This document shows positions 2,436 to 37,921 of a stretch of 64,000 bases of DNA, in pieces. How positions within the stretch are numbered: the stretch's first letter is position 1; the number at the start of each line of letters is the position of its first letter. The translations under genes were made by a program, and so were the position numbers. This DNA comes from a virus, in the IMG/VR virus record IMGVR_UViG_3300025870_000011, positions 1-64,000 of that record; one strand, written 5' to 3'. The notes under the pieces were generated by a model. That model was not told where the DNA came from. It ran no database searches and saw only the letters and a program-made list of their open reading frames with translations.

Positions 2436-3223
2436 GTTCCTTTGATGCTGCTTGGGATTCCATCGCAAAAGAATGGACTCCTGGTTGGCGTTATCGGGCT
2501 GCGGCTTTGCCGACTCTTGGCAAAAAAGATTTGTTGGGAATGTTTAATGACCAACCGTTTGAAAAAATTAAAGACTACGGGCAAGGTCAAACAATGCACT
2601 GGGTTCTCCCCCATCCAAACAATGACAACTTCATGGTAAAAGTTCCACGATCTATCTTTGCGGATATATCGGGTTTTGAACGCCCAATGTATGAACCTGA
2701 GTTTGATCCAGCAGAACGTTTTGGAACTGATTGGAGAGGGAAGAATCTAATTCAAGAGATGGAGGATTTAGGATTCCCTGTTGCTTCCGAACAGATGGCT
2801 GGCGATGGTTATTTGGTTCAGCCCCGACTTGAGATAGATCATCCCGATTTCGGCAAGAATTGGAAAGGAAGACCACGAAAAGGGGTGGCTGATATGTTGT
2901 TAGAACACGCAATTTCAGATCGTGGCAGTTCAAATTGGGGCATTGATCAAACAGGGAATTGGAGAATGCTTGATGTTGATTTAGGTTTGAGCGATCCAAG
3001 TGATTATTGGCCGAGTAGTGCAGAAAACATCGGTGAAACACTTCAACAAGGGTTAGACAAATGGGGAATACAGTTGCCAGCAAACAGGTTGTTGAACTTT
3101 ATGAGCAACATTGATCATAATAGCAAATCTCTTCAACATTACCTTGAAACAATTGAGCCATATTCGGACAATCCAGATAAAGTTGAAGTTGATGGCAAAA
3201 GCCCCTGGTCGGAGGGATATTGA
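2432..3223 (+). CDS. Tagged kinase-like protein, paralogue of the gene at 1132
   Basis: A 263-residue protein starting at ATG 2432 inside the previous stop. The leader MSSFDAAWDSIAKEWTP closely follows that of the 1132 gene. A strand pair ending in FMVKVPR supplies the putative ATP-binding lysine. Around residue 164, DRGSSNWGIDQTGNWRMLDV gives the D-x4-N and final aspartate of a kinase-like active site. The glycine-rich loop (GQGQTMHWVLP) is less typical. The C-terminal signature PYSDNP/DGK/EGY matches its paralogue. Two diverged copies flanking an unrelated gene suggest duplication followed by specialisation. Confidence 0.65.
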   Translation: MSSFDAAWDSIAKEWTPGWRYRAAALPTLGKKDLLGMFNDQPFEKIKDYGQGQTMHWVLPHPNNDNFMVKVPRSIFADISGFERPMYEPEFDPAERFGTDWRGKNLIQEMEDLGFPVASEQMAGDGYLVQPRLEIDHPDFGKNWKGRPRKGVADMLLEHAISDRGSSNWGIDQTGNWRMLDVDLGLSDPSDYWPSSAENIGETLQQGLDKWGIQLPANRLLNFMSNIDHNSKSLQHYLETIEPYSDNPDKVEVDGKSPWSEGY

Positions 3224-3224
3224 T

Positions 3225-4094
3225 ATGATTAGGATTTTTGAAGTTGGACCACGTGATGGGCTACAAAACCTGCCGCACGTTCCATCGACAGAAGATAAAA
3301 TTGAACTCATTAGGCTGCTACGTGATGCTGGCCTTACTCGAATAGAGGTTGCCTCATTCGTTCATCCAAAGGCAGTTCCTAACATGGCCGATGCAAAAGA
3401 TGTGTGTGATGCCTTCGATGACAAAACTGGATTCTCTGTTCTCATCCCAAACCAGCGTGGCCTTGATCGGGCAAGGGAATGTGGGATGACGCAATTCAAC
3501 ATTTTCTTTTCACCCATGAATTCATTCAACCTTGCGAACTATGGTTTAACACAGGAACAGATAATCGCCAACTATGAAACATCGCTGAAAGGGATCCCAA
3601 GAGATTGTATTCGAGTGTATATTTCAGAAGCGTTTGAAGCAACGATTGATGAATTAGCAAAAGCGGTCAAAGAAGGTTTGAAGTTTGGAGATCGGATTGT
3701 TTTGTGTGATACCAAAGGAACTGCTGATCCGTTTCAAATCGCAGTATCTGTACGGGCAACTCGTTATTTGACAGAATTCATATCTCTACATTTACATCAA
3801 GGAAAACATCTGATGGATAACGTTTCAACAGGATATGAACTTGGTGTTCGAGAATTCGATGCGAGCATAGGTGGATTAGGTGGTTGCCCGTTTGTTCAAG
3901 GATCTGGTGCTAACCTCGCAACTGAGGATTTGGTCAAGTGGTGTAATCAACAGGGCATTTCCTGTGGAGTAAAGTTGTCCGATCTCAAAGCGGCTCGCAA
4001 GTTAGCGCACAAGATCAAGAGTCCAACGATTAGGATTGCGGTTAAAAACAAATACAACGAAACAAAGAATAGATTCAAGGCGGTGTGGTTTTGA
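3225..4094 (+). CDS. Hydroxymethylglutaryl-CoA lyase-like protein (DRE-TIM metallolyase)
   Basis: A 289-residue protein, the normal length for HMG-CoA lyase. The family enzyme cleaves HMG-CoA to acetoacetate and acetyl-CoA in leucine catabolism and ketone metabolism. The start at ATG 3225, two bases after the upstream stop, gives the family-typical N-terminus MIRIFEVGPRDGLQN; the open frame further upstream only overlaps the neighbour. Motifs in order are GPRDGLQN (catalytic R and D), IEVASFVHP (metal-ligand E), HLHQGK (metal-binding H-x-H), and GGLGGCPF...NLATEDL with the active-site cysteine and the metal-ligand asparagine. All key residues are present; the aspartate usually after H-x-H is glutamine here. 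It is the only gene in this cassette without the shared leader, and its stop overlaps the next start (TTGA). A related lyase or carboxyltransferase activity cannot be excluded. Confidence 0.88.
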   Translation: MIRIFEVGPRDGLQNLPHVPSTEDKIELIRLLRDAGLTRIEVASFVHPKAVPNMADAKDVCDAFDDKTGFSVLIPNQRGLDRARECGMTQFNIFFSPMNSFNLANYGLTQEQIIANYETSLKGIPRDCIRVYISEAFEATIDELAKAVKEGLKFGDRIVLCDTKGTADPFQIAVSVRATRYLTEFISLHLHQGKHLMDNVSTGYELGVREFDASIGGLGGCPFVQGSGANLATEDLVKWCNQQGISCGVKLSDLKAARKLAHKIKSPTIRIAVKNKYNETKNRFKAVWF

Positions 4095-8522: not shown

Positions 8523-9848
8523 ATGGGCGAGGCTTTATTTCAGGAAGCCTACTCGACTATGATTGAGAAGATGACCCCTAAAGATCTAAAAGTGATGGAT
8601 GAAGAATATCTACGCAGATTTCCGCAAATGCCACTTCGAGATGATTTTGGCGCAATCACGCAGTATTCAGGTGGAGGGTTTGCCGATGAAGGTTTCCGAT
8701 CAGCAGGAATCCCGATCTTATCAACTATTGACGCATGGAAACCTGCAAACGATGTCAGATTATTAAATCAAAAAGAAGGTGAAGTCCTAAGTGGTTATCT
8801 TGGCAGAGATCAAGGCCAAAGACATCCAGATGATATGGTTGAGCATTACGCCGACATCTCACAAGGAAAAAAGATTCACTTTCACGCATCGCCTCCGTGT
8901 CAAGCATTCACAAGAGCGCAACGACAAGGAACGAGTGTTGCGGCTAAAACACCCGAAGAAATGGAAGAAGATAGAGTCGCTGCTATGCCTTTGATTGGGG
9001 ATGCTCTCTACACAGTAGAACAGATGATAAAACACCCTGATATAGACTTGGCATCATGGTCACTTGAAGAAGCACCAGATGTTGCTAAATATCTAAAAGA
9101 AAATCCACATTTTCTCGATAAATATGTCTCCCCTCCCTTTAAGAAAAAGGTAATGGGACTATTGACGAATCATCCAAAATTAGATGCAATTGACTTTGGC
9201 GCACCTACTACAAGAGGTCGAACATTTATCGGTGAAGGATGGAATGCAGAACCTACGCATTACAATTCAACTTACAAACCAAAACCAGGTAGGCTACCTA
9301 ACCCTTCTGTGCTTGATTTTTTGCCACATCTTCAACGAGAAGAAGAAGAGAACAAGCCAAATAAATTAGCAAAATTGACTGATTATAGAGATAAAGGTCG
9401 AATCAGTCAAGAAGTTCTTGATCACCTCATGGCTCAAGGTTACATTTCACAATCGGGTGGCATCAATCCAGGTAAAGGGGGTGCTTCTTGGCGTAACATA
9501 AATTCAAAGCATCCAAGTCAAGAAGGCGGTCCTGGAACGGCTTTCCTACACAGAAAACCACTCACTTCATCTGTAACTGGAATTACACATAACAAACCAT
9601 CGCATATGTATAATCGGTATTTGACCCCTCAAGAAATCATGATGCTTCAAGGTGGGCGACCTACTTACGATCTATCACCAGCAGAAGGACAGTATTGGCG
9701 TAAAACTAATCCACGATCAGGCAACGTAAAATCAATTGCTGCTGTTGATCAAATAATTGGTAATGCAGTTGCCCCTCCAGTAGCAAGAGCAATAGGCAGA
9801 TCAGTAGTAGGTAACAACCTCCAACGCAGGTTGATGGATTATAATTGA
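8523..9848 (+). CDS. Tagged C5-cytosine DNA methyltransferase
   Basis: A 441-residue protein; the N-terminus (GEALFQEAYSTMIEKM) carries a divergent form of the leader, with Y for W. Motif I is YSGGGFADEGFRSAGI near residue 42 (SAM binding). The catalytic motif is SPPCQAF near residue 122, with the nucleophilic cysteine. EEAPDV near residue 181 occupies motif VI (usually ENV, degenerate here). TTRGRTFIG near residue 230 fits motif VIII. QEIMMLQGGRP is motif IX and IIGNAVAPPVARAIG is motif X. The order is that of 5-methylcytosine enzymes. It would methylate the viral or host genome. It is followed by a Gp88-like gene and an adenine methyltransferase, both tagged. Confidence 0.85.
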   Translation: MGEALFQEAYSTMIEKMTPKDLKVMDEEYLRRFPQMPLRDDFGAITQYSGGGFADEGFRSAGIPILSTIDAWKPANDVRLLNQKEGEVLSGYLGRDQGQRHPDDMVEHYADISQGKKIHFHASPPCQAFTRAQRQGTSVAAKTPEEMEEDRVAAMPLIGDALYTVEQMIKHPDIDLASWSLEEAPDVAKYLKENPHFLDKYVSPPFKKKVMGLLTNHPKLDAIDFGAPTTRGRTFIGEGWNAEPTHYNSTYKPKPGRLPNPSVLDFLPHLQREEEENKPNKLAKLTDYRDKGRISQEVLDHLMAQGYISQSGGINPGKGGASWRNINSKHPSQEGGPGTAFLHRKPLTSSVTGITHNKPSHMYNRYLTPQEIMMLQGGRPTYDLSPAEGQYWRKTNPRSGNVKSIAAVDQIIGNAVAPPVARAIGRSVVGNNLQRRLMDYN

Positions 9849-10868: not shown

Positions 10869-13133
10869 ATGAGCGAAATTTTTGAGAAGGCTTGGTATGA
10901 TCAGTTCAAGCGCAATAAGCGTGATCGGCCTGAGATGGGTACGGTTTCTCTTGATGGCGTTACGGCATATCCTCTCGAAGATAGATCAGGTAATCTCAAT
11001 TTAGACCGAATGACCAATTTTCGAGTGGGCAGACCACACAACATAGAGGCATTCCGTAACATCGACTCTACGAGTTTGCATTTAAATCCCGGTCGTATAA
11101 AATCTACTGGGGAAATCAGACCAAATACTGGCGCATTAAGCGTTATGAGAGGTCAAAAACCAATAGCGATTTCCAACGTATTGCCAATCAATAATCCTTT
11201 CTTTAGATTAGATGAAAAGGCGCAACGTTCAGCATTTCTTGGCAATCCTGAACGGGATCGAAAAGCAAATCGAACTGCCCATATGTGGACGGCAGGAGAT
11301 CTGAGTGCGGCAGAATTGAATGCGATGATGGGTGGGACACAAACACCTCAACAAATTCTTGGCATGACTGATGATTTGGTTTTAGATCGAAACGACTTTG
11401 GCGACAGTATGTTATCATGGAAGTATGGTGATGATCTGTACGAAGCCCCTCGTTTTGCATATGAGGTTTATGATCTGGAAGATAAGTCATTGCCACACAA
11501 TAAAAAATGGAAAATGGAAAATCGAAAATACCGTGATGATTTTGCTTTGCCATTCCGTTCCGCACGTGGTCACAGAGTATCTGGTTCAGTAGATCCATTG
11601 CTCAGAATACCGCTACACTTCGCTGGTCAGCAAGCACCTGAACTCGCACGTCAAAGCAAAGGAGGCCGATATGTTGAATGGGAACATCCAGAAACGGGCT
11701 ATCGCTATGAAGGCGTTCCTGTTCCATTGAGTTTGACTGGTGATTATGATCAACCTGCGGTTTCGAGAGGTATTTCAACTGGAACGCATGGATTGTATTT
11801 TGATCCACGTGATTTGACGGGCGCAGGAAGAGAGGTTTGGGATTCCGCTTTATCAGGCGATGTTATTCGCAGAGCGTTAGAGAGCATACAAATACGAGAT
11901 GAAATGAGTCTTGAAAAGATGCCGCATCCATCTTCGGGGGATTTCAGCCGAAGGCAAGCATTACCAACTGCGTTTCGACTTCAAGGGGTCAAAAACAATA
12001 CTATGTATTCTCAAATAATGGCAGCATTACGTGAAACGCTTGGTGATCGTGAAATGATTGAAACGTTTGGCGGTGGTGGAGGACTCTCATTGGGGTTTAA
12101 GCCATCAAAAGCAATCATTAACGACATAAACCCCGACATAGGAAACCTGATGCGAAGAATCATCCGAGAACCAATGAAAATAGACCCGGAACAATACAAT
12201 GTGGGCGTTGGCGAACCAATCACAATCCCTCATCCATCATTAGGTCAAATGAACATTGGAACAATGACGGAAGAGATGAAGAATCGTTTTGGTGAAGGCA
12301 ACAGAACCTTTATTCCAGCACATTTTTACAATCTTCGCAATCAATACGCTGGATTAAGGGAAAAGGCTGCAAGTGGAACTGCAACTCCCGAAGAACACGA
12401 CAAAATGGCTGAAATCTTCTATATGCTTCAATTGACTGGCTTCAACAGTTTGGTTCGATACGGCAAAGGAAAAGAATTGCCTTCATGGGATAATCCATAT
12501 TCAACTCCACCAGGAACTACACGTTCAAAGCACCATATCCCCGAAGATGAAGAATTAGCAGGTTCGTTTTTCCAACAAATGAAGGATGCTGGACTTTACG
12601 ACGCTGAAAAAGACCGATACAAAGGCCGTATTCAACCAGGGGGCAACGCTTTCCGACCAACTCCAATTCGAGGGGGAATCGGAGAACACGATTTCGCACC
12701 CTGGCATGATGCTATGAAAGACTGGGATTGGAGGACTGGAAATGCTTTTGAGTTCTATGATGACATCAAAGACCAAATGAAAGCCGACAAGAACCTATTG
12801 ACATTTGACCCGCCTTACTTTGGTGAAGAGGGCGCACATGGTTTCTTTGGAAAAGATGAGCAAGAACGGCTTATTCAACAAATGATTGATGCAAAGGACA
12901 GGGGCATTCCGACTATGGTTTTCAATTCAATGCATCCTTCAATTGTTGAACCGTTGCGTGAGGCTGGATTCCACATTGAACCATTAGATCGAAAAGACCT
13001 TTCAAGTTCCGATCCAAACTCAAGAGGAACGGTTGGAGAACTTATGGCTATGGCGAACATTGATCAAGACGCATTCCAAACAGCATGGGAGAGGCGTAAG
13101 AATCCCCCACCAGCGCAACGCACTTTGTTCTAA
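10869..13133 (+). CDS. Tagged D12-class adenine DNA methyltransferase with large N-terminal domain and PIP-like tail
   Basis: A 754-residue protein with the leader MSEIFEKAWYDQFKRN. Residues about 20-370 are an unrecognised domain. From about 375 the D12 (Dam-like) N6-adenine methyltransferase begins: GVKNNTMYSQIMAAL, then ETFGGGGGLSLGF (SAM-binding motif I, near residue 397) and LTFDPPYFGEEG (catalytic DPPY near residue 646), in the alpha-class order. The C-terminus has a second tag-like segment DAFQTAWERRK (residues 734-744) and ends in AQRTLF, which resembles a terminal PCNA-interacting peptide (Q-x-T-L-F). The length is about 2.5 times a stand-alone Dam enzyme. Genome modification on entry or during replication is likely. 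Confidence 0.82.
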   Translation: MSEIFEKAWYDQFKRNKRDRPEMGTVSLDGVTAYPLEDRSGNLNLDRMTNFRVGRPHNIEAFRNIDSTSLHLNPGRIKSTGEIRPNTGALSVMRGQKPIAISNVLPINNPFFRLDEKAQRSAFLGNPERDRKANRTAHMWTAGDLSAAELNAMMGGTQTPQQILGMTDDLVLDRNDFGDSMLSWKYGDDLYEAPRFAYEVYDLEDKSLPHNKKWKMENRKYRDDFALPFRSARGHRVSGSVDPLLRIPLHFAGQQAPELARQSKGGRYVEWEHPETGYRYEGVPVPLSLTGDYDQPAVSRGISTGTHGLYFDPRDLTGAGREVWDSALSGDVIRRALESIQIRDEMSLEKMPHPSSGDFSRRQALPTAFRLQGVKNNTMYSQIMAALRETLGDREMIETFGGGGGLSLGFKPSKAIINDINPDIGNLMRRIIREPMKIDPEQYNVGVGEPITIPHPSLGQMNIGTMTEEMKNRFGEGNRTFIPAHFYNLRNQYAGLREKAASGTATPEEHDKMAEIFYMLQLTGFNSLVRYGKGKELPSWDNPYSTPPGTTRSKHHIPEDEELAGSFFQQMKDAGLYDAEKDRYKGRIQPGGNAFRPTPIRGGIGEHDFAPWHDAMKDWDWRTGNAFEFYDDIKDQMKADKNLLTFDPPYFGEEGAHGFFGKDEQERLIQQMIDAKDRGIPTMVFNSMHPSIVEPLREAGFHIEPLDRKDLSSSDPNSRGTVGELMAMANIDQDAFQTAWERRKNPPPAQRTLF

Positions 13134-17506: not shown

Positions 17507-18217
17507 ATGGCTGGTCGTCAGACACGCAAAAATTGTGCGTTTTGCCAACACCCTAAAAGAGATTTACTTGAAAAGCAAATACTTGAAGGTTCATTAGACG
17601 TTCAAGATTGCGATCATCAAAACCAATGGGCGGAAGGAACATCTCATCGGCATATGCGGAGGCACTCTGGAGAATATTACAACAACAGTAATACTCAATG
17701 CCCCATATGCACAGATCCAAATCGCTCACACATTGAATCTGCAATACTCGAAGGAAGGGCAGGCATTGATGACTTTGCTATTGAGTTGGGTATTGCCAGT
17801 AGTTTGGTATCAAACCACATGGAAAAGCATACAAAACCAATTATTCAACAACATATTCACATAGAAGCATTGCCAAATGCAATGAAAACGGTTCATGAAT
17901 CATTAGGCCGTGTTGAAAAAAATATGAATCGTTTAGATCGACTTCTTGGCCGAGTTCTCGATCATGTAGAAAATCAATTCGATGATGAAGAAGAAGTTAT
18001 TGAAATGCGCGATGTTGAAACAGCATTAAAGGTACATCGTGAAGTTAGAGATACTTTGGTTGAACTGGCAAAATGGATGGATAAGGCTGAAACCATTGAA
18101 GATAAGCAATCAGTTTCTATCTTAAATGTTTTACAACAGTTTTACACAGAAAAATCACCTCAAGAATGGATTGAGTTGAAAAGTCGATTAGTTTCTTCTG
18201 GAGTGATGAGTGAATGA
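17507..18217 (+). CDS. Zinc-finger/HTH DNA-binding protein, possible terminase small subunit
   Basis: A 236-residue protein. It has two related N-terminal modules: CAFCQHPKRDLLEKQILEGS and CPICTDPNRSHIESAILEGR, each a Cys pair followed by a helix and, in the second, AIELGIASSLVSNHMEKH, a helix-turn-helix ending in a His. The rest is a long coiled coil (residues about 120-215). Zinc-HTH proteins of this form are found near terminase genes and may recognise the packaging site. Large terminase lies 7 kb downstream, so the assignment is tentative. Confidence 0.6.
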   Translation: MAGRQTRKNCAFCQHPKRDLLEKQILEGSLDVQDCDHQNQWAEGTSHRHMRRHSGEYYNNSNTQCPICTDPNRSHIESAILEGRAGIDDFAIELGIASSLVSNHMEKHTKPIIQQHIHIEALPNAMKTVHESLGRVEKNMNRLDRLLGRVLDHVENQFDDEEEVIEMRDVETALKVHREVRDTLVELAKWMDKAETIEDKQSVSILNVLQQFYTEKSPQEWIELKSRLVSSGVMSE

Positions 18218-26735: not shown

Positions 26736-28107
26736 TCAACGAATAGAAGGAATTTTTGGCGTAGAATCATCGGAAGATGTTTTGAAGTTGCTTGATGAGA
26801 AGTTAATTAGTCAAAAAATAAAGTTGAATCAACAAGAAAAACAGTTGCTTGAGGCACAGAAAAAAGTATCAGGTAAATCAGGTTCAACAGAATCATTGGT
26901 TGGCGAAACAGCAACAGAAGAAGAACCTAAAGAAAAAAATTGGATGAACAGCCGTTCTTTGACTGGAAAATTTGCTGATGTTGCTACTTTTGGTTTGACT
27001 TCAAATATGGGGAAAACTGGAAAAGAAGGCAGAGGCGGTCCACGTGAAGATGCAGGGATTGAGGGTTTTGACTCTCCCGAAATGGGTGGTGGAACACAAC
27101 AACCAGGAACATCAGTAGACACGCAAATATCGCCTATTCCAGTAACTAAGACATGGTTTGTTGATAACTTTGGTATGCAAGGTAATGAGATCGTTGATTT
27201 GTTGGTAAAATCAGGAAAAGATGAATTAGTTCAAGTGATTGCGCCATTGATCGTTGAAGAACGAAAGGCTTTGCTCAAATCATTCCCGTCTGTTTCACAA
27301 GATTTAGTTGAAACATTACCATTCAATGATTTCGATTGGAAGATGTTACAGAAAAACACACAATCATTGGAAATACCATTCAGAAGATTTGTTAAAAGTT
27401 GGTCAGATGGAGATCAGGAAAAAGCGTATGAACTTTGGTCAAATCGAATTACAAAAGAGCAACATCTTAGCCGACCTGAACGAAAAACATTAGAAAAAAC
27501 ACAGAAAATTTTAGAGCAGAATGGGAGCATGAATGCTCAATCCCTACAATCATATGGTGTTCAAGGTAATCCTACAAAGATTGCTATGCTCATCAAATCA
27601 CACGGCTTCTTATACGATATTGTTGCGTTAGGTACTGGCAAGAAAAACAATGATCAGGCCAAATATTACTCCTTGAAAAAGAACGATTTGTTTGTCAAAG
27701 ACGCAGGGGCTTTGATCGGTAATTTGTTTGATGACGGAGGATCTATTGAAATAAGTCCACGCGGGACTCCAAGAATTATCATTCCTTTCAATTCTAAAGT
27801 CCGTAAAGAATACGCCAATGCACTTAACATCGAATTGGGTGTAGCAGGTATTATTGCAGAAGGAGATGGGCTTGTTATTGAGGGCGAATTCTCAGTAACA
27901 AAAGCCATAGAGGTTTCATTACCACATCTTAGAGAGAAGCGAAGCGAGGTCGTTATTTTGAAGAAAGCACTTGAAGATGACAAAGATGCTTTGTTTTGTT
28001 TGAACTTCTCTCATTCCAGTCCAAATAAGCAAGTTGATTTGTTGAAAAGTCGAAACATCTCACCAGAACAACTTGAAGAATTGAAGAAGGGTGTAATAAA
28101 TGGCTGA
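26728..28107 (+). CDS. Protein with LAGLIDADG-like domain, between terminase and portal
   Basis: A 459-residue protein. The N-terminal 120 residues are flexible and include LTGKFADVATFGLTSNMGKT, matching the island in the gene at 21852. The middle (residues 140-265) is helical. Residues about 327-430 resemble a LAGLIDADG endonuclease domain: GALIGNLFDDGGSIEI is the helix-plus-acidic motif (usually F-D-A/G-D-G-S; here FDDGGS), then PRIIIPFNSKVRKEYANAL, LGVAGIIAEGDGLVI and SLPHLREKRSEVVILKKAL. The gene overlaps both neighbours, so it may be a domesticated structural protein rather than a mobile element. The alternative is a freestanding homing endonuclease. Confidence 0.62.
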   Translation: MFDQRIEGIFGVESSEDVLKLLDEKLISQKIKLNQQEKQLLEAQKKVSGKSGSTESLVGETATEEEPKEKNWMNSRSLTGKFADVATFGLTSNMGKTGKEGRGGPREDAGIEGFDSPEMGGGTQQPGTSVDTQISPIPVTKTWFVDNFGMQGNEIVDLLVKSGKDELVQVIAPLIVEERKALLKSFPSVSQDLVETLPFNDFDWKMLQKNTQSLEIPFRRFVKSWSDGDQEKAYELWSNRITKEQHLSRPERKTLEKTQKILEQNGSMNAQSLQSYGVQGNPTKIAMLIKSHGFLYDIVALGTGKKNNDQAKYYSLKKNDLFVKDAGALIGNLFDDGGSIEISPRGTPRIIIPFNSKVRKEYANALNIELGVAGIIAEGDGLVIEGEFSVTKAIEVSLPHLREKRSEVVILKKALEDDKDALFCLNFSHSSPNKQVDLLKSRNISPEQLEELKKGVING

Positions 28108-29899
28108 TCGAGAAAGAATGGAACGTCTTTTTTCCGCTATCGGAATCGACATGGAACGGCATTCAACGCCTATGCCCACAATGCCTTTGTTTCAAGCAGG
28201 AATTCAAGAACCTGCATTATTGCAGGGAATCACTATACCTGCGCTTTATGCTGCTACGTTTGAATGCGTTGTTCTCCGATCAATTCTAAATCATCTTTCT
28301 GTTGAAACATTTCGTAAAGGATTCGGATGGAAGCCGAAATTTGTAGTCAAGTGCAAAGAATGTGATGAGGTTTTTCATCAAGAAGTCGAATCATGTGCAA
28401 AATGTGGTGGTGAAGTTCGTAAGGCAGATAAATCTGAAATTGAATATGCCGAAGTATTGTTGGAAAATCAAAACAGCATGATGCAAAGTTTTGTTGAAAT
28501 TCTAAAAGAAATTGAAATGGATTTGAATGTAGTAGATGACGCATATCTTATTTTGACCAAAGAGTATTTTGTTGATCCAGATACAAAGAAAGTCATGTTC
28601 TTCCGTGTAAAAGAGATCACACGTGCAGATCCCATTTTCATGCGTATGCTTGCTGATAAAAGAGGTGTTCGAGGGGGAAGTCAATATACCAGTCTTGTCG
28701 AAAGAACATTTAGAACGAGCGATCCAAAAGATAAATGCCCAACAACAGGTATGCCAGTTGTTCCTATTCATTACATGAACCTTGCAGGTGTTGGTAAAGG
28801 CCAAGTCTATACTGAGGGTGAAGTTATACACATAAGTAAATGGTCGCCTGGAAAGTTGTATGGCCGTAGTCCAGTAGCAAGTATGTGGAGGCAAGTGAAT
28901 ACTCTTATTGCTATGGATAACTATGTTTATTCGGCATATCAGAAGAAACGTATGCCACGTGGAGTTATGGTCATTAAATCATCCAACATGGAAACCGTTG
29001 AGAGAACGGCTCGCAATATCCAAGAGCATCTTGAACGAGATCCAAATTACATCCCAACAATTGGTGTAGAAACAGAATCAGGGCGTGGAGGTCTTGAGTA
29101 TGTGCGTATGATGGACACTCTTGAAGAACTACAATATATCCCGATTAAAGACGATATTAGGCAACGTATCGCCGCATTCTTTGGAGTGTCAAATGTGTTC
29201 ATGAATGACGTGTCAGGAGGTGGGCTAAATAACGAAGGTATGCAAATCGTTGTGAGCAACAGGGCTGTGGCATATGCACAGTCAATTTACAATCGAATAC
29301 TATTCCCTCAAATTGCTAAGGCTTTTGAAATTACAGAATGGGAACTCGTATTGAATCCACATGAAGAAGAAGATGAAATCATGCAACTTCGCAGAGATGA
29401 AATGGCAATTCGCAACATGATGCAAATGAAGCAAGCAGGATATGAGGCTACATTGCGAGATGGTATTGATGACAAAATACTACACTTCGATTTCAAACAA
29501 CCAGATCCCCAAGAAGTTGCGGCGGCTGAGGCTCAAGCACAGCAACAGCAAGGAGGGCAGGGGCAACCTGTTCAGAAAGGAGACTTAGAACTCGATCCAA
29601 GCATGATGTTTAAGCGAACCACGTTTGATTCCAGTAGAGGCTCAGTACCATTTGCTGATTCTTTGGCTACAACTGCTGGAACCGATTTGCCGCCTTTGAG
29701 AACTGCAAGTGAAAACACACGGCAAAGTGGTGGTTCAAGTCCTGGTATGATCCGCAGAGTCGATGGCGCACCAACAGGGGCTTCAATAAAAACGGACAAA
29801 CGAGAACATAAAACTCCACAAGAGAAAGCCATAGACCATCAAATCAAAGAAACAGAAAAACGTAACGGTTTGGGCAGTTCGAGGGACAATAGTAAATAA
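28100..29899 (+). CDS. Portal protein with inserted zinc ribbon
   Basis: A 599-residue protein immediately after terminase. The clip/stem/wing layout is seen as ALYAATFECVVLRSILNHLS, then a region with GEVIHISKWSPGKLYGRSPV near residue 245, DNYVYSAYQKKRMPRGVM near 272 and DIRQRIAAFFGVSNVFMND near 350, typical of portal proteins. A zinc ribbon, CKECDEV and CAKCGG (residues about 85-104), is inserted in the N-terminal part, which is unusual. The C-terminal 130 residues are Gln-rich and polar. It would form the dodecameric DNA channel. Confidence 0.9.
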   Translation: MADRERMERLFSAIGIDMERHSTPMPTMPLFQAGIQEPALLQGITIPALYAATFECVVLRSILNHLSVETFRKGFGWKPKFVVKCKECDEVFHQEVESCAKCGGEVRKADKSEIEYAEVLLENQNSMMQSFVEILKEIEMDLNVVDDAYLILTKEYFVDPDTKKVMFFRVKEITRADPIFMRMLADKRGVRGGSQYTSLVERTFRTSDPKDKCPTTGMPVVPIHYMNLAGVGKGQVYTEGEVIHISKWSPGKLYGRSPVASMWRQVNTLIAMDNYVYSAYQKKRMPRGVMVIKSSNMETVERTARNIQEHLERDPNYIPTIGVETESGRGGLEYVRMMDTLEELQYIPIKDDIRQRIAAFFGVSNVFMNDVSGGGLNNEGMQIVVSNRAVAYAQSIYNRILFPQIAKAFEITEWELVLNPHEEEDEIMQLRRDEMAIRNMMQMKQAGYEATLRDGIDDKILHFDFKQPDPQEVAAAEAQAQQQQGGQGQPVQKGDLELDPSMMFKRTTFDSSRGSVPFADSLATTAGTDLPPLRTASENTRQSGGSSPGMIRRVDGAPTGASIKTDKREHKTPQEKAIDHQIKETEKRNGLGSSRDNSK

Positions 29900-31882: not shown

Positions 31883-34800
31883 ATGACAACAAATCTTGAC
31901 AGATTGAGAACCGATGCAATCATCTCGATCCATCAAGGATCTGATTTTGATTATGATCAATACATTAGTCAATTACCAACAGAAAACATATCCAAACAAG
32001 ATACAGCGACAATGCTTGGGGCTATGCCTCCCGAAATTCCTGAATATCAAATGGTGGATCTAAATGCGCCAATGGCAGTATCTCAAATGAAGATACCAAA
32101 TCACAAAGATTTTCTTGCAGGTCATACCAAAGTATCGAATAATCCTTTGACCGATTGGCCTACTGCTTCTCCTACTAATCAGTTTGGAAAACATCATCCT
32201 TTTGGCATGGAATCAAACAGTTGCCCGTTGTTGCATGGTGCATCATGGGGTGAACCAGCATATGCAGAACATATCGCTCATGCTATGCCTATGTTAAAAT
32301 CAATAGCAGAAAATGAAAGGCGTTTAAACTTCGATACTCAGATTTTTGGAGATCCAAAAGAATCTATGCACGATTTAATGACACGTGATCGAAACAGATA
32401 CAAAACTCATACAGATGAGGAATATTCCGCAGGCAAGATTGCTGAATGGCAAAAGAGATTTGGTTTGATTCCATATCTGTTTGGTCTTGAATATAATACG
32501 GAAGATCAGCGTAATTCATTCCTTGACATCGTAAAACAAATGGCTACAAAACAACATATGGATTCGCCTGATTCTAAGTTTTTACAAAATAAAATGCAAG
32601 AAAAAGCAGGGATTTCATGGGGTCGTGCATTACGTTCATTTCGAGCAAGATTTATGCCGATGCTCCAATGGTGGCGTAGAGCCAGTGATCGACACGGACC
32701 AATCGCTCCTGGTAAACCAGTTAATTCTGAACTTGAATTGACAAAGAGCGATTCTGATGCTTTATTGCACTTTGTCAGTCCTTATGTAGAGATACCTCCG
32801 ATGACCATAGAACCATCTTTTACATCTCATTGGTGGGACTTATTTCAATCATGGGGCGGAGTTGGAAGAGATAGTAAATCCCTGCATGATATTTTGAAAC
32901 AGTCCTATCCAAAGTTATTCAATGGCGGCTGGTTAGATGATGTATTGATGAATCAATCGAATGAAATGTTAAACGTTTATTCAACTGATGGGGGAAGTCA
33001 TTTCCCGCATATCACAAATCATTCAGATGCAAAAATGCATCCCGATCATAAATCATTTACATCAGAATTTGCTGATGCCGATTTCTTTGAAAAGCGAAGA
33101 TCTAACTGGAGTCACGCATCTAATTTGCATTTTTTACATCCAAGTGAAATAAAAGGTCAAGGAGGCCGTATGATTATGCCATCTGATAAAATGATGTTAA
33201 GTCGTTTAGGTCGTTCTTTGGCAAGTCAAGCAGATATGGGTTCGCCAAGAATTGGCTTAGGGCGTGAAGAACATCCATCATCGAATAAACAATATTGGGA
33301 TAGTCATAACGCATTGTTCGCTGCAAATGACAAGCACTTAGGGACAGTCATGAAAAACATGGCTCAAAGAGTCATGAAACAATTTGGTCCAGAAATTTTA
33401 AATCCTACTGATTCAAAAGATATGCAACAGTCTACATTGGCACGTGGCAATCTACAACAGTTGGCTTCTGCCGCAGATTATGCTATGAAAAAGGTGAACA
33501 TGGGTGAAGAATATCGGGCTTTAGCACCTGTATTTGAGAATGGTGGGATCTCTTTGAACATAAAATCATTAGGACCAGTCAATCCTACATCGTTTGCTAC
33601 AACCCCTCCTATTTACAATACAGGAAACACACATCTTTGGGGTCATGAAATGCCATCAAATCTAACCTGGAAGTTCGATCCTCAAAGCGGAGGCATCAAT
33701 TTTGGAATGGCTGATGAGCCGTTTAATATTATGCAACGAACAGTTCACGAAAACAAAGTAAAAGAGGTATTGCCTTCGTTACTCGGAACTAATGTTCAAC
33801 CAAAACAACAAGACATTTATGCATTAAGCGCAGTAGATCAAAGAGGGCTTTCACCCATTACTACTGGCAGTATTCTAAAAGCCGATGAATACAAACCAAC
33901 AGGTGTATTTCAAACCAAAACAATACCTGCGTACACCATTCATAAATTAGATGATATGGATAAGTTGCGTGGATTCTCAGGCGATTGGATTGTTCAAAAA
34001 ATGCCAAATGGAAAGCGAATGTTTGTTGAAAAAAGTGGCAATCATTTGAAAAATGCAAATGTTCCTAAAGAAATAAAAAAGCAATTGAGAGAGATAAAGG
34101 GTGATTTTGTATTCGACGCATATCTTGATGATGATACATTAAGAGTTGTTGATTTGTTAGTACATAAGGGTACAGATATGGCTCTCGAACCATTAGAAGA
34201 TCGAGTCAATGCCCTCCGTACATTGTATGATTCAACTGAAAATGTTCACTTCCCCATGCCCACAAATTGTGTATCTACGGATCAAGAAGGTCTAAACAAA
34301 GCGATTTACAATTTTGATGAAGGAGAGGTTCTGATTCGAGATTCAAAATCAACTTTTATGAAAGAGAAAGAAGTTCATCCTAAATGGATTCGATATGCAA
34401 AAGAATCTATTGCTAAATCATTCTATCCCCCAATGCCTGAACTAATTGTTTATCCTGATCAGGTTAAACTATGCTATCCCTCTATCATTGATCCTGTGGT
34501 TGTAAAAGGTGATTTTGATGGTAAAGCATTCACGATTAAACACGTACAAGGTAACGAAGCATTATTTTCAAAGGCTGAAAGAGATATTCCATTATGGGGT
34601 CCTTTAGCAATAAGTCTGTTGAAAGAAGGAGGTGCGGCGACAGGTGGAGGTGCTGCAAATAGCGGTTCTTTCACTTCATCTAATACAGGGTCATATCAAC
34701 CGATCCATTCCTTTTCAAAACGAAAGCGACCACGTAAGTTAAAAATAGCCAAGCAAACAATCTTACGTGCGCCTGCAATTATTGGGGAAGACGAGGAAGG

Positions 34801-35323
34801 AGATGGCGTGGCTCATACGATGAAACACGCTCGTTCTGAAATTACCAGGGATGATAAAACAAAAACAACTGAGGAATTGATTTCTAAAGTAAAAGGACTT
34901 AACGAAAAGATGCTTGAAATGTTTGCAGGAGAATATGGTCTTGAGCAAACAGAAAACGGCAATTGGACTGTTAATGAGGCTATTGATGATGACATCATTG
35001 AAAGAATGTTCCCTCGAATGAATAGGATCTCTCCAGATGGCGGAGCGTGGGCAGGTATGCAAGCCGATATTACTGCGCCAAGAGGACCTACTGAATTGAT
35101 CGAGGATAGTGGAACTACTTTCTATGATCCAAAAGAAGGCGAAGAAACTGAGGAAATTCCTATGAAGCACTTGCAGGTTAAAGACAATGCAACTGGAGAA
35201 GAAGCAGTTGTTGATATTGAAAATGGCAAGGCTACTCTCAGAATGCCGTTGAAAACGCAACAAGAGATTGCAGATGAACAAGAAGTTGATCCCAACGATA
35301 GATCAGAAGCAGAAGAAATTTGA
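31883..35323 (+). CDS. 1146-residue head-region protein with embedded DNA-ligase-like nucleotidyltransferase domain
   Basis: It has a GGAGGGG ribosome site. The first 670 residues are an unrecognised large domain. Residues about 680-845 carry the ordered motifs of the ATP-dependent DNA ligase/RNA capping superfamily: WIVQKMPNGKRMFVEKSG near 700 (motif I, K-x-x-N-G-x-R), KGDFVFDAYLDDDTLRVVDL near 740 (motif III/IIIa), EGEVLIRD near 814 (motif IV) and HPKWIRYAK near 833 (motif V). Motif I has one extra residue compared with K-x-D-G-x-R, so activity is uncertain. The C-terminal 250 residues are acidic/polar. It sits between head accessories and the capsid protease. Ligation of packaged or injected DNA ends would be a speculative role. 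Confidence 0.65.
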   Translation: MTTNLDRLRTDAIISIHQGSDFDYDQYISQLPTENISKQDTATMLGAMPPEIPEYQMVDLNAPMAVSQMKIPNHKDFLAGHTKVSNNPLTDWPTASPTNQFGKHHPFGMESNSCPLLHGASWGEPAYAEHIAHAMPMLKSIAENERRLNFDTQIFGDPKESMHDLMTRDRNRYKTHTDEEYSAGKIAEWQKRFGLIPYLFGLEYNTEDQRNSFLDIVKQMATKQHMDSPDSKFLQNKMQEKAGISWGRALRSFRARFMPMLQWWRRASDRHGPIAPGKPVNSELELTKSDSDALLHFVSPYVEIPPMTIEPSFTSHWWDLFQSWGGVGRDSKSLHDILKQSYPKLFNGGWLDDVLMNQSNEMLNVYSTDGGSHFPHITNHSDAKMHPDHKSFTSEFADADFFEKRRSNWSHASNLHFLHPSEIKGQGGRMIMPSDKMMLSRLGRSLASQADMGSPRIGLGREEHPSSNKQYWDSHNALFAANDKHLGTVMKNMAQRVMKQFGPEILNPTDSKDMQQSTLARGNLQQLASAADYAMKKVNMGEEYRALAPVFENGGISLNIKSLGPVNPTSFATTPPIYNTGNTHLWGHEMPSNLTWKFDPQSGGINFGMADEPFNIMQRTVHENKVKEVLPSLLGTNVQPKQQDIYALSAVDQRGLSPITTGSILKADEYKPTGVFQTKTIPAYTIHKLDDMDKLRGFSGDWIVQKMPNGKRMFVEKSGNHLKNANVPKEIKKQLREIKGDFVFDAYLDDDTLRVVDLLVHKGTDMALEPLEDRVNALRTLYDSTENVHFPMPTNCVSTDQEGLNKAIYNFDEGEVLIRDSKSTFMKEKEVHPKWIRYAKESIAKSFYPPMPELIVYPDQVKLCYPSIIDPVVVKGDFDGKAFTIKHVQGNEALFSKAERDIPLWGPLAISLLKEGGAATGGGAANSGSFTSSNTGSYQPIHSFSKRKRPRKLKIAKQTILRAPAIIGEDEEGDGVAHTMKHARSEITRDDKTKTTEELISKVKGLNEKMLEMFAGEYGLEQTENGNWTVNEAIDDDIIERMFPRMNRISPDGGAWAGMQADITAPRGPTELIEDSGTTFYDPKEGEETEEIPMKHLQVKDNATGEEAVVDIENGKATLRMPLKTQQEIADEQEVDPNDRSEAEEI

Positions 35324-35365: not shown

Positions 35366-36724
35366 ATGGCAACAGTCCTTGAACACAAATCGGCATCATG
35401 GAGTGCCGAAGGTTCAGATTTCTTGTTGAAGTCCTCTGGAAGCGGAGGGGAACTTTATGTTGCTGGCTATGCATCTGTTGATATGGTCGATAAGCAGGGA
35501 GATAGAATCCCTACAAACGCTTTGAAAAAGGCATTTGGGCAATTCATGGGTAACAAAGCATTCCGCAATGTGCAGTTGGCTCATTCAGGAATCCAAGTCG
35601 GTGAAGTAGTAAATGATCACACCGATTCAAATGGACGTGTTTGGAAATCAGAAGTTGATGATCACGGACTTTTCGTTGTGTGCAAGATTCGCAGCGATAT
35701 TCAGAAAGCACGTGAAGTGCAGAAACAAATTCGTAGCGGAGATCTACGAGCATTCTCGATTGGGGGTCAAGCCCTATTCCGTGTTAGTAAAACAACACCT
35801 GAACTTGGCAACCATCGAGAGATTACCGATCTTGAATTGCATGAAATAACGCTATGCAAGAAAGGAATCAACCCCGAATCGACTTATACGATACTAAAAA
35901 TGGAAGACGATAACATGAGCAACACAGAAGTTTTGAACGAAATAAAAGCAGGATTGAGCGAAGTTCTCAAAGAACTAAGCGATAAAGAAGATGAAAAAGG
36001 CGACATGAAGTCCTATAAAGAAGAAAAAGGATCTTACATGGAAGATGATGACGATAGCGACACAAGAAAGTCTCAAGAAGCCGCATTAGATTATGTTACC
36101 ACTCTCGAAAAATTTGCACACGAAGCAGGAGTAAACTTAAACGGACTTCGCGACCACTTTGGTTTGGAGAAGGCATACCTTCTCGAACAAGGTCGTGGAG
36201 GCTACAACCATCGTGGACAAGGTGATGAGATCGGATCTGGCGAAGATGCAACTGAGCCTTCTTATCCTTCTCTCCCAAGTCCTGGTGGCAATCAACACGT
36301 CATCAAGTCTCCAAGTGTGCGAAACATGAACATGAACGCACCAAATGGTAACGGGAATGTCATCAAGTCTTTGACTCCTGATGTTCTCGAAAAGGGCTAC
36401 CGACATTATGCTTCTCTTCGTGATGAAGAAGCAGTAAAGGGGCTTGTTGAGAAAGAATGGCAAAACCGATACGATGCTGAAACACAACAGGCTCTTGAAG
36501 TTCGCAAGGCAAACGATGTTGGACTCCAACTAAATGCCCTCCGTAACGAAATTTCATCCCTTAAGAATGAAAACGCATCTCTTCTAAAGAGCGATGTTAC
36601 ACCTACTTCCCCCACAACAACGATCCGTGTGCCAACTCATTCCGAGTTTGCACAGATGGGCAATGACCTTGACGGATGGCGAGCCGCAGAAGCACTCGCT
36701 GCTAAAGCATTGAGGGGCGAGTGA
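35366..36724 (+). CDS. Capsid maturation protease fused to scaffold domain
   Basis: A 452-residue protein. Residues 28-185 are the HK97 prohead-protease fold (herpesvirus-assemblin-like serine protease): VAGYASVDMVDKQGDRI, VQLAHSGIQVGEVV with the catalytic His near 72, and LRAFSIGGQALF with the catalytic Ser near 130, then LELHEITLCKKGINPES. Residues 190-452 are charged and coiled (EIKAGLSEVLKELSDKEDEK; LQLNALRNEISSLKNENASL), typical of a delta/scaffold domain. It would organise and then cleave capsid precursors, and is the natural candidate to recognise tagged cargo. Confidence 0.88.
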   Translation: MATVLEHKSASWSAEGSDFLLKSSGSGGELYVAGYASVDMVDKQGDRIPTNALKKAFGQFMGNKAFRNVQLAHSGIQVGEVVNDHTDSNGRVWKSEVDDHGLFVVCKIRSDIQKAREVQKQIRSGDLRAFSIGGQALFRVSKTTPELGNHREITDLELHEITLCKKGINPESTYTILKMEDDNMSNTEVLNEIKAGLSEVLKELSDKEDEKGDMKSYKEEKGSYMEDDDDSDTRKSQEAALDYVTTLEKFAHEAGVNLNGLRDHFGLEKAYLLEQGRGGYNHRGQGDEIGSGEDATEPSYPSLPSPGGNQHVIKSPSVRNMNMNAPNGNGNVIKSLTPDVLEKGYRHYASLRDEEAVKGLVEKEWQNRYDAETQQALEVRKANDVGLQLNALRNEISSLKNENASLLKSDVTPTSPTTTIRVPTHSEFAQMGNDLDGWRAAEALAAKALRGE

Positions 36725-36751
36725 AACTCAAAATAAATGGAGATGACTAAG

Positions 36752-37921
36752 ATGACACAAGGATATATTAGAACAATCGAAGACATGGAACGCCTTTACT
36801 ATGGTGCTGGCGCAGGAACAAACGCATGGGCATACAGCGGAACAGACTTACTCAAGGCTGATTCACCGTTGATGTCCTCAACCGCTGGAACTTACCAAGC
36901 GATCTTTGGTCGTAAGGTTTGGTCACAACTCAACCAAGAATTTAACGCATTTTCAATCCTCCCAAAGAAACCTTGGGAAAAGAGTGGATGGCGTGTTGTT
37001 ACTGGCAAGCCTGATGACGCTGTTGGGCTTCCTGAAAACGGAACACTTCCTGATTCAACCAAGCCAACTTTTGAAGAAGTAGCCACCAAGCCAAAGACTG
37101 TTGCGAGCAAGTTCGACCTGAGCGAAACCGCAATGTTCCTTGCAGACAAGGATGATGGTCTTGGCGATGCAAGAGCCGTCATTAAGATGGAAATGTCAAA
37201 ATCTCACGCAGAGTCAATCAACAAGATGCTTTTGAAGGACTTTGGAGACAACGCTACAAACGGCGGTGGACTTGCAGGTAACTCCTTTGAATCTCTTGAT
37301 CGAGCAACTTCTTCTTCCCTTTCAGAAACGGCTGCTTTTGCTGAGGTCGATAACCTATCGGCTCACAATATGTATTCAATTACACGCAACTCTACTGGAA
37401 CACGAAGTTGGTTTGATGCTAACGTCGATGTCGGTGGAAATGGTGCTGAACGTCCTCTAACTCTTAACATTCTTGACGGTATGTTCCGTGAAGTTTGGGA
37501 GCGTGGTGGTCAGCCAAAGGTTATGCTAACAGGCTATGACACCATTGAGAAGATCCAACAACTCTTGCAGCCGCAACAACGTTTCACTGAAATGAAGCGT
37601 GTTACGCCATCTGTAAACGGTGTTCAAGGAATACCTGGAATGGAAGGTGGATTTGTCGTCGCTACATACAACGGTGTCCCGATCATCCCTGCAAAGGACG
37701 TTCACGCACCATCTGGTGGACTATCTCGCATCTATATGCTTGATACAGACTATATGTATTTCTGCACAGCAAAACCAACTCTTTACCACGAAAGTGGAAT
37801 TGAAACTGGCGACCCATTCGGTATCAACCGTCTTGGTCAAGTCGGACTCTTCCACACAATGGGTGAACTTTGGCAACTCTTCTATGGCGCACACGGCAAG
37901 GTCAGAGATCTTAGTGCATGA
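36752..37921 (+). CDS. Major capsid protein (HK97 fold)
   Basis: A 389-residue protein located directly after the protease. ATG 36752 is preferred over 36737 because GGAGATGACT upstream then works as the ribosome site, as in the next gene. The N-terminal arm is helical. FGRKVWSQLNQEFNAFSILP and WRVVTGKPDDAVGLPENG fit the E-loop region, and VASKFDLSETAMFL with a later GVPIIPAKDVHAP fits the P- and A-domains of HK97-like capsids. Homology is judged from order, length and pattern, without a search. Confidence 0.88.
   Translation: MTQGYIRTIEDMERLYYGAGAGTNAWAYSGTDLLKADSPLMSSTAGTYQAIFGRKVWSQLNQEFNAFSILPKKPWEKSGWRVVTGKPDDAVGLPENGTLPDSTKPTFEEVATKPKTVASKFDLSETAMFLADKDDGLGDARAVIKMEMSKSHAESINKMLLKDFGDNATNGGGLAGNSFESLDRATSSSLSETAAFAEVDNLSAHNMYSITRNSTGTRSWFDANVDVGGNGAERPLTLNILDGMFREVWERGGQPKVMLTGYDTIEKIQQLLQPQQRFTEMKRVTPSVNGVQGIPGMEGGFVVATYNGVPIIPAKDVHAPSGGLSRIYMLDTDYMYFCTAKPTLYHESGIETGDPFGINRLGQVGLFHTMGELWQLFYGAHGKVRDLSA

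Follow-up and report, generated by a model that had tools for sequence, protein, structure and literature searches.

A DNA-ligase-type fold with degenerate catalytic motifs in a portal-adjacent protein of putative Poseidoniales viruses

A protein of 1146 amino acids, encoded upstream of the prohead protease gene in a virus likely to infect marine Poseidoniales archaea, carries a domain that is related in fold to ATP-dependent DNA ligases. The gene occupies a fixed place in the head block, the domain is retained in every intact relative examined and is under strong purifying selection, and its catalytic residues have been lost. Our preferred reading, which we hold with slightly more confidence than doubt, is that a portal-adjacent head protein of Poseidoniales viruses acquired a ligase-type nucleotidyltransferase (NTase) plus OB unit, which was retained for its shape, lost self-adenylation, and probably serves as a binding clamp. 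Judged from its residues, the domain is probably not an active ligase.

Results

Gene position and protein layout

The window, i.e., the whole stretch of 64,000 nucleotides that was analysed, contains the following features.

28100–29899, plus strand: portal protein, as context (PF04860; phrog_18178, E 1.8e-58)
31883–35323, plus strand: head-module protein with the ligase-like domain, 1146 amino acids (open reading frame)
31883–33802, plus strand: N-terminal region, residues 1–640, mainly helical, then beta-rich at residues 545–618 (AF2 full-length model)
33929–34402, plus strand: ligase-type NTase domain, residues 683–840 (weak PF01068 match, hhalign to ligases, AF2 and Foldseek)
33998–34018, plus strand: degenerate motif I, K706-M707-P-N-G710-K-R712 (residue counts in 69 distinct domains)
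34106–34156, plus strand: degenerate motifs III and IIIa, with D745, Y747, V756, and D757 (profile alignment, residue counts)
34319–34402, plus strand: degenerate motifs IV and V, EGE815VLIR819D and HPKW835IR837YA839K (residue counts, 69 domains)
34403–34636, plus strand: OB-like C-terminal lobe and following helix, residues 841–918 (strand order in AF2 models)
34805–34972, plus strand: small conserved helix-helix-helix-strand-strand domain, residues 975–1030 (AF2 full-length model, conservation)
35366–36724, plus strand: S78-type prohead protease, as context (PF04586, E 5.6e-10; phrog_23555)
36737–37921, plus strand: major capsid protein of SU10/HK97 type, related to HVTV-1 and HCTV-1, as context (phrog_24667, E 1.4e-43)

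A first-pass annotation of this DNA had placed the 1146-residue open reading frame between portal-associated genes and the capsid protease, and the gene order bears this out. Four small genes of unknown function lie between the portal gene and the open reading frame. The place is fixed among relatives: at testable loci, the portal gene is upstream in 48 of 48 and the protease or capsid gene downstream in 66 of 66. About 70 relatives carry a version of the gene, with products of about 1085–1195 amino acids.

For residues 1–640, no known family was recognised, as scans of 35 members gave no Pfam or PHROG match. Over the same 35 members, Pfam and PHROG at E ≤ 1 returned only the ligase family and chance-level matches; a MuF or other known delivery domain was not found. 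The NTase and OB parts together span residues 683–905. We infer the OB fold of residues 841–918 from position and Foldseek coverage of the model. The small domain at residues 975–1030 looks winged-helix-like in the model, which is a guess by eye. It belongs to a second conserved block (34805–34972 and 35006–35107, from EYGLExTEDGxWTVNEAIDDD onward), whose conservation exceeds that of most of the protein.

Relationship to DNA ligases

Direct searches with the single protein gave no match in Pfam, PHROG, PDB, or the phage collection, and ankyrin matches from a PDB profile search were chance only. When family members were scanned singly, PF01068 (DNA_ligase_A_M) touched 24 of 35, with a best E of 5.7e-4. 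The domain from the window itself reached E 0.08 and 13 bits, where the curated cut-off is 26.2, and a genome scan of 20 virus records gave no PF01068 match above that cut-off. Profile–profile comparison (hhalign) of the family with 30 archaeal ligases scored 39.7. As controls, 200 column shuffles had a mean of 15.7 (s.d. 2.7, maximum 25.8) and the reversed alignment scored 21.6; other parts of the 1146-residue protein scored 13–18 against the same ligase profile.

The AF2 model of the domain (pLDDT 80.6, pTM 0.75) was compared with the PDB by Foldseek. DNA ligases came out on top, with archaeal and human ATP-dependent enzymes best (E 4.5e-8), and 93 PDB chains matched at E ≤ 0.001. The TM-scores are modest (0.4–0.5 on the query) and the rmsd is large in many rows, as expected for a two-lobed protein at a different opening angle; other rows align at 4.5–5 Å. 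Among viral models, DNA ligases and capping enzymes were matched; the top BFVD match is A0A516LT18 (827 amino acids, E 6e-13). On sequence profiles and predicted models, we regard the ligase resemblance of residues 683–905 as real. The nucleotidyltransferase fold proposed earlier for this head-module protein is thus present in the prediction.

Residues at the ligase motifs

The four motif strings on which that proposal was based all occur, in order: KMPNGKR at residues 706–712, FVFDAYLDDDTLRVVDL at 742–758, EGEVLIRD at 813–820, and HPKWIRYAK at 832–840. A relaxed pattern of the ordered motifs matched none of 20,000 protein shuffles, which is a rough guide only because the pattern was composed after the sequence had been seen. 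We counted residues in a sample gathered with the N-terminal domain (115 rows, which overlapping collections reduce to 69 distinct cores). Both [ED]xKxDGxR and WxKxK are present in each of the 30 archaeal PF01068 loci fetched for comparison.

Motif I: The family pattern is V-Q-K706-[K/M/R]707-P-x-G-x-[R/H], with Q705, P708, and G710 invariant in the 69 distinct domains. K706 is found in 60 of them; the other nine have H, A, S, T, or E there, and in the tree these losses fall on three or more separate branches. At position 707, K stands in 49, M in 19 (the virus of the window and 18 others), and R in one. An ungapped profile alignment anchored on G-x-R makes 707 the nucleophile of KxxG and Q705 the counterpart of the conserved preceding Glu. 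In an alternative register, the strand at 701–706 and the four-residue turn of the AF2 model would allow K706 as the nucleophile with one extra residue. On alignment and model, the register is uncertain by one residue, and neither choice yields a conserved lysine. The Asp of motif I is absent in the family. A first conservation table of 58 rows had K706 invariant, which would favour an active enzyme; the wider sample overturned this. The motif I lysine had been proposed as the nucleophile, yet K706 is replaced in nine domains, the canonical place 707 is Met in the window, and one member (L227) has Ser-Arg at 706–707 and hence no lysine at either position.

Motifs III and IIIa: The Glu of motif III is lost. 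The aligned position 747 is Y in 49 domains, V in 13, F in six, and T in one. D745, two residues ahead of it, is invariant, as is D757. The aromatic residue of motif IIIa is replaced by V, I, M, or L in 67 of 69.

Motif IV: In EGxxxK, the Lys has become the invariant R819. An acidic residue stands at 815 in 63 of 69, one residue closer than in ligases.

Motif V: The KxK pair is lost. Position 837 is L, R, H, C, or T, with Lys once in the 69 domains, and position 839 is A, P, T, S, I, or V, with Lys never.

Other positions: R819, D820, K827, H832, and W835 are invariant in all 69. In total, about 40 positions are invariant in 69–115 rows, including, besides those named, H761, D765, D773, R774, and S823.

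As the motifs are degenerate, the earlier identification of motifs I, III, IV, and V holds for their surroundings, and fails for the catalytic residues.

These counts bear on the reading first suggested, an active DNA ligase, with K706 or an adjacent lysine as its nucleophile, that would seal nicks or the ends of the genome during packaging or ejection. Fold and motif order agree with it, a lysine stands at 706 or 707 in 68 of 69 domains, and the register is uncertain by just that one residue. Moreover, no other PF01068 or PF01653 ligase was found in the related virus contigs searched, some of which measure 90–107 kb; this is weak evidence because the contigs may be incomplete and the hosts encode LigA themselves. 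However, essentially all members lack the motif III Glu, the aromatic of motif IIIa, and the lysines of motif V; the Glu of motif IV seems displaced or lost, motif I has no Asp, and the lysine shifts between members and is missing from L227. We consider an active ligase very improbable, the least so favoured of the readings, and do not uphold a sealing function.

Retention and selection

All 77 N-terminal homologues whose open reading frame reaches the domain, uncut by a contig end before it, carry it. The dN/dS ratio is about 0.065 for residues 690–840, the lowest in the protein, compared with 0.099 for residues 1–640 and 0.125 for the OB part; as dS is near saturation, these values are rough and their ranking is safer. 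Because the domain is never missing, the gene position is fixed, dN/dS is lowest here, and about 40 positions are invariant, we reject decay. The purpose for which the domain is maintained is probably something different from standard adenyl transfer.

Could this purpose be purely architectural, with the domain as a spacer or protein–protein interface in a scaffold or neck protein and no nucleic acid or nucleotide ligand? Such a role would account for the same constraints as the pseudo-ligase reading, and the net charge of the domain is negative. Nevertheless, conserved residues cluster at the motif sites that form the pocket, and the domain is better conserved than the remainder of the protein, beyond what a spacer would require. 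We therefore hold an architectural role to be improbable, if a little less so than an active ligase.

The invariant residues raise another alternative, an active nucleotide-handling enzyme with a rewired pocket. It would bind a nucleotide or nucleic-acid end and act through D745, H761, R819-D820, K827, and H832 rather than a lysyl-nucleotide, and might be delivered with the genome. The many ionisable residues among the invariant positions and the strongest purifying selection within the protein are in line with it. Specifically, D745, D757, H761, D765, D773, R774, R819, D820, K827, and H832, all strictly invariant, would also fit a rewired active site and thus speak against the pseudo-ligase reading, as do the lysine at 706 or 707 in most members and the acidic residue at 815, which might take the place of the Glu in motif IV. 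A further parallel is HVTV-1, which has a related capsid and, at the corresponding place before the protease, a 1313-residue protein with zeta-toxin kinase and ADP-ribosyltransferase matches; that protein (gp115) is, however, not homologous. Invariance also need not mean catalysis because many invariant residues, such as D757, D765, R774, L778, and W835, are structural in true ligases too. We know of no superfamily member that transfers a nucleotidyl group without the motif I lysine, which counts against the rewired enzyme. On balance we see it as an unlikely explanation, but the strongest of the alternatives. Its fuller form is somewhat more doubtful still: the virion would carry a rewired ligase/capping superfamily member, able to act on a nucleotide or on the end of the viral genome with no lysyl-nucleotide as intermediate, and a widespread clade of marine archaeal viruses could not do without it.

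Virus and host

The capsid protein in the window is 30% identical to that of HCTV-1 over 98% of its length, and HVTV-1 is likewise related. Relatives of the 1146-residue protein are frequent in IMG/VR. In the Poseidoniales single-cell assembly AG-422-I20, a 106-kb contig carries one of them in an identical gene order; a sorted virus particle could explain its presence as well. The host assignment, namely a tailed virus of marine Poseidoniales archaea, is drawn from this one single-cell assembly and the capsid kinship. A match to NAD-dependent LigA was obtained in 39 of 40 genomes of one Poseidoniales family (that of G020), so the viral domain of ATP-dependent type is not obviously derived from the host.

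Further genes of the window include two DNA methyltransferases, of C5-cytosine type (8523–9848) and D12 adenine type (10869–13133), an HMGL-like gene (3111–4094, E 4.8e-24), and a gene with a hemerythrin-like domain at the Pfam cut-off (17507–18217). HMG-CoA-related genes are mentioned for magroviruses, too.

Discussion

Few enzymes are as well understood as DNA ligases, whose cores wrap DNA between the NTase and OB lobes. Since the residues needed for joining are missing, gripping of DNA or of a partner protein is likelier than the sealing of breaks. In the pseudo-ligase reading, a clamp without chemistry would sit in the virion and grip DNA, for instance the genome end or portal-proximal DNA; the ligand might instead be a partner head protein. 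The clamp would act during packaging or ejection. The computations show the fold relationship, the fixed place, the retention, the strong purifying selection, and the loss of catalytic residues, whereas location in the virion, DNA as ligand, the timing, and the lack of catalytic activity are inferred. Charge does not indicate DNA binding: the domain is negatively charged on balance, although true ligases are as well.

If the pseudo-ligase reading is correct, it would offer a clear example of a repair enzyme that has become part of the virus head, in which a ligase core became permanent in every intact relative examined while its catalytic residues were stripped. It also suggests a specific role for an unannotated protein class in an abundant group of ocean viruses. 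Descriptions of such viruses should not label this gene a DNA ligase.

Enzyme folds in head-block proteins are already known. As far as we have seen in the open-access literature, a ligase-type domain in a head protein of a tailed virus has not been reported before, in agreement with the first-pass annotation, which knew of no such architecture.

Comparison with known systems

ATP-dependent DNA ligases (PF01068 plus OB; archaeal Lig, human LIG1/3/4, T7 ligase): The order of secondary structures is shared, NTase and then OB. The viral neighbourhood xVVDLLVHKGTD..EPLxDRxxALRTL resembles xxFDxLxxdGxDL..xPyxeRrxxLeel in ligases, and the spacing between motifs IV and V, R/K-x-x-x-S-x-F/Y-x-x-G, is common to both. 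Unlike these ligases, the viral domain has no conserved nucleophile, motif III Glu, motif IIIa aromatic, or motif V lysines, is embedded at residues 683–905 of 1146, and is accompanied by no helical DNA-binding domain that we could recognise. One Thermoplasmatota open reading frame of 1146 residues (L151, G032:C13:3000-9770) was considered as a relative and rejected, being an unrelated metallo-beta-lactamase/ligase fusion. Its ligase domain is intact (MKIDGMR, DAEGIM, WCKIKK), and the equal length is a coincidence.

Magroviruses (Magrovirales, viruses of MGII/Poseidoniales): Host group, capsid clade, and an HMG-CoA-lyase-like gene are shared (PMC10768690, PMC8651126). Published accounts give magroviruses PolB and a separate ATP-dependent ligase for replication (PMC10160649, PMC10768690). 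Neither was found in the 69.8-kb record of the window, and PolB was found in only three of 12 records searched; records may be fragments. Hence, the virus is related to the described magroviruses but not clearly among them.

HVTV-1 gp115 (haloarchaeal Druskaviridae): A large protein with enzyme domains before the prohead protease and a related capsid are shared. The differences are the enzyme folds, the lack of detectable homology, and the MuF-like gp114 that precedes gp115, for which no counterpart was recognised in the window. Homology of the N-terminal part to head genes of HVTV-1, HGTV-1, vir519, and vir335 was rejected; the best case, HVTV-1 gp113 (P 0.014), rests on 19 residues. In gp113 itself (L026:164-3310), we noticed by eye an HEMGH metalloprotease-like motif. 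It adjoins the MuF-like gp114 and the zeta-toxin/ART gp115, which suggests a cluster of enzyme-bearing head-block proteins.

Polyvalent and MuF-fused head proteins: These are likewise large multidomain proteins of the portal-to-capsid block with an enzyme fold on a probable head component (PMC5512222). A ligase-type NTase domain is not among the polyvalent-protein domains in the passages found there. In contrast to the proteins described there, the 1146-residue protein has no detected MuF, portal, or other listed polyvalent domain, and its domain is fixed across the clade rather than swapped. That a head protein can contain an enzyme domain without activity has a precedent in phage Mu MuF, whose inactive PBECR domain is proposed to act by RNA binding (PMC5512222).
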